Shown: one piece after another, positions 32,426 through 34,042 of the stretch
Numbering within the stretch: position 1 is the first letter of the stretch
How the letters are laid out: the number at the start of each line of letters is the position of its first letter
The notes under the pieces: generated by a model
The model's input: only the letters and a program-made list of their open reading frames with translations
The model's database searches: none
What the model was told of the DNA's origin: nothing
NCBI RefSeq assembly: GCF_029889745.1
Contig: NZ_CP123639.1
Location: 996,501 to 1,060,500, forward strand
Length of the DNA: 64,000 nt
Source of the DNA: Ligilactobacillus faecis
GTDB taxonomy: Bacteria > Bacillota > Bacilli > Lactobacillales > Lactobacillaceae
Reading direction: 5' to 3'
Position numbers and translations under genes: made by a program

Positions 32426-32454
32426 TTGCATATTAATTTTAGCTGTGCTAAACT
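32426..32454 (+). promoter_or_regulatory. Promoter of the leader peptide/MFS unit
   Basis: TTGCAT (32426-32431), 17-nt spacer, then TAAACT (32449-32454), with TG upstream of the -10. Start predicted near 32461. The ribosome binding site of the leader ORF follows at 32475. Confidence 0.75.
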
Positions 32455-32487
32455 GCTAATTAACAAATTTAAATGGAGGGAAAAAGC

Positions 32488-32553
32488 ATGAGCCAAGTTC
32501 GCTTAACAAACATTCAAGTAAATATTAGCATTATTCGAATCATTGATAAGTGA
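32488..32553 (+). CDS. 21-residue isoleucine-rich leader peptide
   Basis: ATG 32488 has GGAGGG (32475-32480) 7 nt upstream and a promoter 30-60 nt upstream, so translation is very likely. The peptide starts MSQVRLTNIQ and ends SIIRIIDK; six of 21 residues are Ile, all in the second half, with an Arg amid them. It is followed by mutually exclusive hairpins and an intrinsic terminator before the transporter gene at 32708. This is the structure of a translation-dependent attenuator. The peptide is not one I can name. The stop codon overlaps the first arm of the first hairpin. Confidence 0.7.
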   Translation: MSQVRLTNIQVNISIIRIIDK

Positions 32554-32656
32554 TGCGGATAGTTTGTGATGTCTGCATCCTACAGGAGGCAGACAAGCGA
32601 AGAGAACTCAGCTTTAGAGCTCAGCGTTTGTTTGAAAACAGGCGCTGAGCTTTTTT
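32552..32656 (+). promoter_or_regulatory. Candidate attenuator with intrinsic terminator
   Basis: Arm 32552-32559 (GATGCGGA, starting in the leader stop codon) can pair with 32572-32579 (TCTGCATC). 32570-32576 (TGTCTGC) pairs perfectly with 32589-32595 (GCAGACA) and excludes it. 32593-32599 (ACAAGCG) can pair with 32625-32631 (CGTTTGT). The terminator is 32618-32626 with 32643-32651, then T to 32656. Overlapping alternatives of this kind are the hallmark of attenuation. The effector and the logic are not known. Confidence 0.65.
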
Positions 32657-32707
32657 CATTTAGATTTGAGGAAATTTACATAGCAAGAAAAGAAGGGAAG
32701 CGATGAA

Positions 32708-34042
32708 ATGGAATCATCAGAAGTAACGACGCCAGTCAAAGAAGTTGAAGAAGTAGTTATGCCACAAGTTTCACAAAGTTCAGTCAAAACTGTGATCGTA
32801 GCCTCTATGATCGGAACAGCAGTCGAATTTTTTGATTTTTATGCTTATGGCACAGCCTCAGCCGCTTATTTTCCCAAAGTCTTTTTCCCACAAATGACAC
32901 CAGTCTTAGCCACGGTTTTAAGTCTATTGACTTTTGGGGTCGCCTTTGTCGCGCGCCCAGTGGGGTCATTTTTATTTGGACATTTTGGTGATCGTTTAGG
33001 GCGGAAAAAAACGCTAGTCCTTTCAATGCTCGTCATGGGGGTAGCGACAGTAGCGATCGGCTTTTTACCAGGATATGCGACAGTTGGGGTTTGGGGAGCG
33101 CTTCTCCTTTGTGTCTGCCGTTTTGTGCAAGGGATCGGTCTTGGTGGCGAGTGGTCAGGCGCTGTTTTAGTCGCAACTGAAAATGCACCGGCAGATAAAC
33201 GTGCTTTATACGGAGCTTTTCCAGAAGTCGGAGCACCGATCGGCTTTTTCTTATGTAACGGGCTCTTTTTCTTACTAGCTAATTCATTGACAGAACAACA
33301 GATGCTAGCATTTGGCTGGCGCGTTCCGTTTTTAGTTTCAGCAGTTTTAGTTGTGATCGGATTATATGTGCGGCGTCATTTAGAAGAAACACCGTTGTTC
33401 AAGTTAGCGCAAGAAAATGACAATACGACGAAAACTCCGCTTAAAGAAGTTTTTCAGTCAAATTGGAAAGAGATCGTCAAAGGGACTTTTATCATGGGGG
33501 GAACGTATGCGATGTTTTACACTTTGACGACTTGGTCTTTAGCGTATGCGACGACAGCGCTTGGCTTTAGTCATTCTGAAATGCTTTTATTATTGATGGG
33601 AGCGATCGTTGAATTTGCCGTTTTGATCATGACGACTTCACTTTTAGCCGATAAAATTGGGCGTAAAAAAGTCTTATTGACAGCAACCGTGGCTTTAGTT
33701 GGTTTTTCCATTGTCTTTCCGTACTTCTTAGAAGGACAGCATAACTTAGGGGGGATGCTCTTATTTTTAGGTGTTGGCTTTGTCATCATGGGGACGTTGT
33801 ATGGTCCAGTTGGTGCAGTTTTGCCAGAGCTTTTCCCGACTAAAGTCCGTTATTCAGGTGCTGGGATCACTTATAATCTTGCAGCGGTGATCGGTGCTGC
33901 CGTTGCTCCCTCAGTAACGACATGGTTGATCGCGCGTCATGGTCTACATGCGGCTGGACTTTACATGCTAGTCTTAGCCGTGGCTTCGGTCGTAGCTTGG
34001 TTGACGACAAAAGAGACAAAAGATATCGATTATACAAAATAA
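32708..34042 (+). CDS. MFS transporter, MHS (metabolite:H+ symporter) family
   Basis: 444 residues and 12 helices. FFDFYAYGTASAAYFPKVFF in helix 1, GHFGDRLGRKK in loop 2-3 and RFVQGIGLGGEWSGAVLVATENAP are the diagnostic MHS motifs (ProP/ShiA/KgtP relatives). Members import organic acids, betaine or proline with protons. A 21-codon leader peptide and attenuator precede it, so expression may respond to a translation-related signal. It is monocistronic; a strong bidirectional terminator follows. Confidence 0.9.
   Translation: MESSEVTTPVKEVEEVVMPQVSQSSVKTVIVASMIGTAVEFFDFYAYGTASAAYFPKVFFPQMTPVLATVLSLLTFGVAFVARPVGSFLFGHFGDRLGRKKTLVLSMLVMGVATVAIGFLPGYATVGVWGALLLCVCRFVQGIGLGGEWSGAVLVATENAPADKRALYGAFPEVGAPIGFFLCNGLFFLLANSLTEQQMLAFGWRVPFLVSAVLVVIGLYVRRHLEETPLFKLAQENDNTTKTPLKEVFQSNWKEIVKGTFIMGGTYAMFYTLTTWSLAYATTALGFSHSEMLLLLMGAIVEFAVLIMTTSLLADKIGRKKVLLTATVALVGFSIVFPYFLEGQHNLGGMLLFLGVGFVIMGTLYGPVGAVLPELFPTKVRYSGAGITYNLAAVIGAAVAPSVTTWLIARHGLHAAGLYMLVLAVASVVAWLTTKETKDIDYTK

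Follow-up and report, generated by a model that had tools for sequence, protein, structure and literature searches.

How is the gene for an MHS-type MFS transporter of Ligilactobacillus faecis controlled, and what does the region ahead of it suggest about the compound that is carried? In the 64,000-nucleotide stretch of DNA analyzed here (the window), the order from 5′ to 3′ is a glycoside hydrolase gene, a promoter, a ribosome binding site (RBS), a leader ORF, hairpins, a terminator, and the MHS-type MFS gene, with a terminator-like site behind the glycoside hydrolase gene, upstream of the leader. With a probability of roughly 0.86, we read this region as a transcription attenuator operated by the ribosome, in which the Ile codons of the leader serve to sense isoleucyl-tRNA and which controls an MHS-type transporter of the branched-chain amino acid (BCAA) regulon. 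Its parts are as follows.

32426–32454, (+) strand: promoter, −35 element TTGCAT (32426–32431) and −10 element TAAACT (32449–32454), read from the sequence.
32475–32480, (+) strand: RBS of the leader, GGAGGG, read from the sequence.
32488–32553, (+) strand: predicted leader ORF, MSQVRLTNIQVNISIIRIIDK, 21 codons plus TGA, read from the sequence and conserved in orthologue loci.
32532–32544, (+) strand: arm 0, within the Ile/Arg codons; partner arm 1 (32549–32561); from folds, with weaker covariation.
32552–32561, (+) strand: arm 1, starting in the TGA stop codon of the leader; partner arm 2 or arm 0; from sequence and covariation.
32570–32579, (+) strand: arm 2; partner arm 1 or, via 32570–32576, arm 3; from covariation.
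32589–32599, (+) strand: arm 3; 32589–32595 pairs with arm 2 and 32590–32599 (antiterminator) with arm 4; from covariation.
32617–32634, (+) strand: arm 4, 5′ arm of the terminator (32617–32632) and partner of arm 3 (32625–32634); from covariation and a terminator scan.
32637–32656, (+) strand: arm 5, 3′ arm of the terminator (32637–32652) plus T-tract (32651–32656); from sequence, a terminator scan, and covariation.
32708–34042, (+) strand: putatively regulated gene, MHS-type MFS transporter of 444 aa; from a family search and orthologues.

A sequence-only reading of this DNA had listed the promoter, the RBS, a 21-codon ORF, overlapping hairpins, and an intrinsic terminator, all of which are present, as is the start of arm 1 inside the stop codon (TGA overlaps 32552). 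It had also placed six Ile codons in the second half of the ORF; there are six in all (five ATT and one ATC, at codons 9, 13, 15, 16, 18, and 19), five of them in that half, and codon 9 lies earlier. With its RBS and its run of codons for one amino acid, the predicted short ORF has the makeup of an attenuator leader. The −35 and −10 elements are 17 bp apart, and TGC before the −10 element makes it an extended −10; the leader promoter is absent from the output of a generic promoter scan of the window. A TGnTAnnnT motif stands ~40 nt ahead of the leader start in 28 of 48 leaders (chance expectation not computed). The pairings that had been named exist and reach further (32552–32561 with 32570–32579, 32570–32576 with 32589–32595, and 32590–32599 with 32625–32634), and they are joined by one helix that was new, in which the Ile/Arg codons at 32532–32544 pair with 32549–32561; this pairing of arm 0 with arm 1 came from computed folds, not from hand reading.

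Helices 1:2 (10 bp), 2:3 (7 bp), 3:4 (10 bp), and 4:5 (16 bp; all lengths read by hand) form a chain in which each rules out the next, and the terminator helix (32617–32632 with 32637–32652) has six T after it. The leader segment folds at −72.4 kcal/mol, compared with −42.8 ± 3.5 kcal/mol in dinucleotide shuffles (z = −8.45; 0 of 200). Rfam release 15 gave no match in the window, its T-box model included, and identity as a T-box was dropped; the upstream regions of two brnQ genes in the same genome do match that model.

The set of orthologues comprised the best 80 of 375 loci encoding transporter relatives in a genome-contig scan, namely 52 Firmicute loci (Lactobacillaceae, three Sporolactobacillus, and one Streptococcaceae MAG), 2 from Pseudoclavibacter, and 26 others, of which one is a Paraburkholderia and the rest bear actinobacterial names. 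A short Ile(/Val)-rich leader ORF with an RBS stands upstream of the gene at 45 of the 52 Firmicute loci, in nine named genera (examples: MRSANNNTIIINNIIIRIIHR, MKNVMQFHNAADIIIIRIII, MTTNVRVEIIII, MTTNTNILIIIIISAIIN, and MKTNTTFNANTIIVRVVVII). It is absent at four (L038, L043, L045, and L072), and three more (L051, L053, and L076) end at a contig edge before the leader region. By eye, two of the loci lacking the attenuator (L043 and L045) retain the promoter, and L038 shows a decayed arm 1/arm 2; in genome G019, leader L129 lies at the end of a contig. Ile accounts for 278 of the 858 residues in 46 leaders, followed by Asn (109), Thr (78), Val (58), and Leu (55). The N-terminus, the C-terminus, and the length of the peptides differ; what persists is the Ile run, together with the RNA arms. 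In eight leaders, the ORF extends through arm 1 and the peptide ends in Thr-Ala-Gly, Thr-Val-Gly, or Asp-Ala-Gly, so that arm 1 is kept as RNA while its reading differs.

Farther away, no Ile-run leader was found at the 11 inspected of the 26 loci beyond Firmicutes and Pseudoclavibacter, and the covariance model R1, built from the leaders as described below, had no match in 7 of the inspected distant loci. Both Pseudoclavibacter orthologues (L078 and L079) carry a leader ORF with three Ile codons (III), with a clear terminator found by script in L079; R1 matched neither of them. These two actinobacterial loci encode a transporter of 59–60% identity, and it is possible that transporter and control region were transferred together. 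An Rfam search over 20 related loci returned a single T-box, which lies in L047, ~1.9 kb ahead of the transporter gene.

Covariation was scored in an alignment (A1) of 46 leaders, i.e., the window and 45 loci, with both Pseudoclavibacter left out. For the read-through pair of helices, 1:2 and 3:4, 89.0% of the cells were paired, 15 of 19 base pairs showed double changes, and 47 cells were doubly changed, compared with 12.1 ± 4.4 in shuffles (0 of 500). The corresponding values for 2:3 and 4:5 were 92.8%, 19 of 21, and 158 against 43.0 ± 7.6 (0 of 500). Controls with slid partners fell far below the named helices 1:2, 2:3, 3:4, and 4:5, in a comparison that somewhat favors these helices, since they were named after inspection, and in which the related sequences are not independent. 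Terminator and antiterminator, which exclude each other, both covary.

Helix 0:1 covaries weakly, with shuffles matching the observed value in 3, 184, 24, 214, and 0 of 500 cases for five measures. It is 77.4% paired in the register that fits the leaders with Arg, and the register shifts in other genera. When leader plus arm 1 was folded, at least four bases of arm 1 paired with upstream codons in the minimum-energy structure of all 46 leaders. This segment exceeded the average stability of synonymous recodings in 35 of 46 leaders (mean z = −0.78) and that of codon permutations in 39 of 46 (mean z = −1.21), the values for the window itself being +0.34 and −0.98, respectively. Helix 0:1, a protector formed by the codon run with arm 1, is likely real, though not proven.

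These data bear on a rival account of the locus, namely an ordinary intergenic terminator beside which an ORF and further hairpins arose by accident. Short ORFs are frequent, as are terminators, and a simple terminator scan of the region found 2 terminator-like sites where 0.6 ± 0.9 were expected, but the leader is conserved, the mutually exclusive helices covary across genera, and related elements stand before BCAA genes (see below). Because of this conservation, a chance terminator is very unlikely, and we leave it hardly any weight.

We then asked what a ribosome on the leader would do to the competing helices of the attenuator. Transcripts were folded to end before arm 5, and ribosome masks extended to 14 nt past the start of the A site, which is an assumed footprint. 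Across the 46 leaders, the mean probabilities of 0:1, 1:2, 2:3, and 3:4 were 0.63, 0.19, 0.70, and 0.10 with no ribosome; 0.54, 0.27, 0.59, and 0.47 with a ribosome on codon 2; 0.05, 0.56, 0.35, and 0.66 on the Ile codons; 0, 0.02, 0.83, and 0.34 on the last Ile codon, where 1:2 is already gone and 2:3 dominant; and 0, 0, 0.81, and 0.39 at the stop codon. The probability of 3:4 with the ribosome on the Ile codons exceeded that at the stop codon in 39 of 46 leaders; it was also above the no-ribosome value in 42 and above the codon 2 value in 35. In the window, the same four probabilities were 0.88, 0, 0.92, and 0 with no ribosome; 0.15, 0.67, 0.27, and 0.60 on the Ile codons; and 0, 0, 0.88, and 0.22 at the stop codon, and the fold with the ribosome on the first Ile codon (codon 9) resembled the no-ribosome state. 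Going by these helix-by-helix probabilities, the middle Ile codons would be the favorable stall sites, early codons would help partly, and the last Ile codon would not. A ribosome on codon 2 lifts 3:4 as well (0.47, or 0.56 in the cruder scan described next), so the favorable positions are not the Ile codons alone.

The cruder scan counted any upstream pairing of arm 4 in 47 leaders (the 46 plus L079) and gave means of 0.33 with no ribosome, 0.56 on codon 2, 0.62 on the Ile codons, and 0.50 at the stop codon, with the Ile value above the no-ribosome value in 43 of 47 leaders and above the stop value in 40 of 47. Shuffling of the spacer largely abolished these differences (0.290 vs. 0.007 ± 0.017 and 0.120 vs. 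0.025 ± 0.026). In the eight leaders that overlap arm 1, the stop value (0.63) was not below the Ile value (0.56), a misfit at the stop codon. Since it hardly separates early from Ile codons, we rank the cruder scan behind the helix-by-helix scan as the main evidence. In both computations, the position of the ribosome on the codons is predicted to alter the fold.

From the computed helix competition, it would follow that transcription reads through on isoleucine shortage and terminates when translation is finished or absent. The six arms (0 to 5) would act as a chain of mutually exclusive pairings. With isoleucine scarce, the ribosome would stall on the Ile codons and cover arm 0, upon which 1:2 would form and free arm 3 for arm 4, yielding the antiterminator and transcription of the gene. 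With isoleucine plentiful, a ribosome at the stop codon would cover arms 0 and 1, so that 2:3 and 4:5 would form and transcription would stop; it would stop as well with no translation, through 0:1, 2:3, and 4:5. The translation-controlled attenuation proposed in the sequence-only reading is supported by conservation, covariation, and this computed competition, and the search for homologous leaders that it had called for brought out both the Ile(/Val)-rich peptides at 45 of 52 loci and the competing stems 1:2, 2:3, 3:4, and 4:5, whose covariation no shuffle reached.

Where else does the element occur? A covariance model (R1), built from A1 with helices 1:2 and 4:5, gave 125 matches at an E-value of ≤0.01, spread over 93 of the 397 family genomes; at this per-genome threshold, about four chance matches are expected in the 397 genomes, the E-values are rough, and matches with no detected leader ORF may be false. 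The copy in the window is the only one in its genome. For 30 matches (loci L111–L140), an MHS gene adjoins the element in 28, and the other two lie at contig ends; six further matches are already known MHS leaders. The remaining 89 were examined by translated comparison, which assigned 23 to MHS genes (L154 has another MFS gene first), 23 to BrnQ, 11 to IlvD, 9 to a hydratase-like gene and then BrnQ, 6 to a hydratase-like gene in a stretch where BrnQ was not found, 1 to BrnQ plus a weak MHS-like match (L176), 2 to ApbE, 2 to L-LDH/hydroxyacid-dehydrogenase-like genes, and 3 to an EIIC-like membrane protein, one of them followed by a hydratase-like gene. The last nine showed none of the tested genes; they include L157, with a weakly SSS-like transporter, and L177, with a beta-glucoside PTS gene, both of which stand behind Ile-rich leaders. 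Pfam searches of 64 first downstream genes identified 24 Branch_AA_trans and 11 ILVD_EDD domains. Besides the MHS gene, BrnQ and IlvD are the genes found most often downstream of R1 matches, and through them the targets lie in the metabolism of the sensed amino acid. A minority lacks an evident BCAA link, namely the beta-glucoside PTS gene, the two ApbE genes, the three EIIC-like genes, and others among the nine.

The leader residues track the target gene. Specifically, the 11 IlvD leaders contain 23% Ile, 16% Val, and 18% Leu; the 20 distinct BrnQ or hydratase-BrnQ leaders contain 36% Ile, 4% Val, and 3% Leu; and the MHS leaders contain 32% Ile, i.e., Leu/Val/Ile for ilvD and mainly Ile for brnQ and MHS genes. 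Because R1 finds the element before brnQ and ilvD in other Lactobacillaceae, the MHS-type transporter probably belongs to the BCAA regulon, and the pairing of such a leader with an MHS-type transporter, which had seemed unfamiliar, makes sense.

Several individual R1 loci deserve mention. The leader of L177, MENSLFSNNNNIISAVIII, is Ile-rich and precedes the beta-glucoside PTS gene, which has no evident BCAA link. Genome G020 (contig C44, 7818–12804) carries three tandem copies of the attenuator (L034/L154/L157), two of them with identical leader peptides, ahead of a weakly SSS-like transporter, an MFS gene, and an MHS gene. A hydratase-like gene lies between the Ile leader and brnQ in L182, L190, L193, L194, L196, L199, L209, L213, and L214; it is weakly like 2-keto-pentenoate hydratases (below the NCBIfam cut-off and with no Pfam match), which suggests an enzyme of this kind linked to BCAA uptake. 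In a search reaching beyond the family, R1 matched in six genomes, two of which belong to another family; neither of these two matches resembles the present element, and both were dropped, one being a Leu-run leader at a thiolase gene and the other an apparent end of a coding region. The former (L237, reverse strand, ~1438–1650 of the reversed locus) shows an ORF ending in LLLLLLAN and hairpins upstream of the thiolase gene, possibly a Leu attenuator in another family of the same order.

Might the leader answer to something other than isoleucyl-tRNA? The sequence-only reading had offered isoleucine/arginine charging or arrest of the peptide by a small molecule. Isoleucine charging is the better of these candidates, its run being shared among the leaders. 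The Ile run often includes an Arg codon; other genera have Ser-Ala (AGC GCN) instead, or nothing, and the AGC GCN codons pair with a correspondingly changed arm 1. Pairing between the CGN of the Arg codon and arm 1 accounts for this codon better than sensing does. More generally, the leader could sense a general slowing of translation or another amino acid (Arg, Asn, or Thr), Ile being no more than tolerated: Asn (109/858) and Thr (78/858) are common, Arg recurs in the run, and a ribosome on early codons favors the antiterminator to some degree. Yet Asn and Thr are mainly N-terminal, away from the arms (by eye), Arg does not occur in some entire genera and its codon forms pairs with arm 1, and the ilvD leaders switch to Leu/Val/Ile, matching the pathway, which leaves this account highly improbable.

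Small-molecule arrest is another rival, and nothing seen hints at arrest by a drug or metabolite on a conserved motif of the peptide. On this account, a small molecule or ribosome drug would arrest the nascent chain, as in the BmrB and erm leaders, and induce an exporter of the compound. The target is indeed a transporter, stalling on the Ile codons would have the same effect whatever its cause, and one L. ruminis copy stands before another MFS gene. By eye, however, no residue beyond the Ile/Val run is evidently conserved, the residues before the stop codon vary widely, and no conserved peptide arrest motif of the erm/bmrB type is seen. Furthermore, with a ribosome on the final codons of the ORF, 1:2 is absent and 2:3 is favored (mean of 0.81), which means the terminator, and related elements precede brnQ and ilvD, genes that are not known to be linked to drugs. 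Attenuation of a transporter by a ribosome drug via a leader does exist in BmrB, as the accessible text of PMC4191407 describes, and we consider arrest improbable here. Isoleucyl-tRNA remains the more probable signal.

The transporter and its host were examined for clues to the cargo. Its best match, at nearly full length, is TIGR00883 (NCBIfam) with 417.2 bits, and since this lies below the cut-off of 443.45, we call the protein MHS-type and do not name it a member of the MHS family. The nearest named orthologues are those of L. apodemi, L. animalis, and L. murinus (88–91% identity). Solved structures were tried as a clue to the substrate and gave no help, the matches being distant MFS proteins alone (phosphate, SLC22, and SV2 proteins). 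Of 100 nearest neighbor genes, ten on the same strand, from ten loci, were scanned (nine downstream and one upstream, the latter in L061), and no neighbor family was shared. The upstream gene of L061 is an amino acid permease. The genome of the window has three brnQ genes (L141, L142, and L143), of which L141 and L143 match the T-box model, with specifier triplets that look, by eye, like GUA (Val) and AUC (Ile); L142 showed no T-box and no Ile leader. An IlvD-family match was found in 1 of 26 genomes of the genus, and because the genome of the window has none, its isoleucine probably comes from outside by import. The MHS-type transporter may import isoleucine or a closely related compound.

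Codon choice in the leaders departs from local usage. In 46 of 46 cases, AUU makes up a larger fraction of the Ile codons in the leader than in same-locus ORFs (≥150 codons), with 239 AUU, 38 AUC, and 1 AUA in the leaders and 2,387, 2,132, and 354, respectively, in the ORFs, in a comparison in which many single loci are not significant and related leaders are not independent. In the window, the leader has 5 AUU and 1 AUC, compared with 199 AUU and 769 AUC in the genes (AUU share of 5/6 vs. 199/1,041; P = 0.0013, uncorrected). Codon counts of the genes at BrnQ loci were left aside, as the longest open frame there did not always correspond to the gene. A codon read more slowly, by wobble, would be expected to make the response of an attenuator sharper, and the preference could also reflect avoidance of structure in the codon run. 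In the bmrB leader, rare codons tune the basal level, according to the accessible text of PMC4191407.

A wider reading, to which we give somewhat less than an even chance, is that a widespread, uncatalogued family of Ile/Val/Leu attenuators makes up a BCAA regulon in Lactobacillaceae that runs in parallel with T-boxes and can be exchanged for them; that the MHS-type protein represents a new class of importer for isoleucine (or BCAA keto/hydroxy acids); and that AUU, read by G-U wobble, keeps the leaders sensitive in AUC genomes. The element gives an orphan transporter family of many food and gut lactobacilli a testable substrate class, and a conserved RNA element is added to a group in which T-boxes usually get the credit for amino acid control. 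Related genera can be compared for how one kind of gene, brnQ, is controlled by T-box or by leader peptide, and the AUU preference against local usage makes ideas about codon choice in attenuators testable.

The attenuation mechanism is classical; the element itself has no Rfam match and gives a functional hint for the transporter. In open-access literature, we found no description of an MHS leader element; BCAA leader attenuators are described there for ilv operons and T-boxes for lactobacillar transporters. The closest layout is that of the his attenuator of E. coli and Salmonella, which has six segments (A–F): a stall on the codons leads to B:C and D:E and read-through, and completed or absent translation leads to C:D and the terminator E:F. 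The element in the window shares the six exclusive arms and the logic of codon stall and read-through, and differs in having Ile instead of His codons, Gram-positive hosts, and transporter/BCAA targets; the two are likened by layout alone. The general mechanism of his operon attenuation is treated in the accessible text of PMC9413887.

BCAA leader-peptide attenuators are described for ilvGMEDA and ilvBN (PMC1183508) and for ilvD of S. aureus (PMC5794164), along with the ilvB-II uORF of Corynebacterium (PMC10272879). They have in common with the present element a short ORF with BCAA codons, alternative hairpins, and an intrinsic terminator, but they control biosynthesis operons, whereas the element of Lactobacillaceae precedes mainly transporters (MHS and BrnQ), and ilvD in some species. 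Firmicute leader peptides that replace T-boxes, e.g., at hisS paralogues of bacilli, appear in PMC2965389, whose main text, as accessible, names no isoleucine leader (isoleucine, 0 occurrences); the hisS/hisZ leaders likewise substitute leader-peptide attenuation for T-box control, with His codons. The bmrB leader of B. subtilis bmrCD also places a leader ORF, a terminator, an antiterminator, and an anti-antiterminator before a transporter, but it answers ribosome-targeting antibiotics, and the accessible text reports no amino acid codon run (PMC4191407). Finally, T-box leaders of amino acid transporters are described for lactobacilli in the available part of PMC2494555; there, too, transcription of the transporter responds to tRNA charging, but T-boxes bind the tRNA directly, whereas the element in the window would work through translation.
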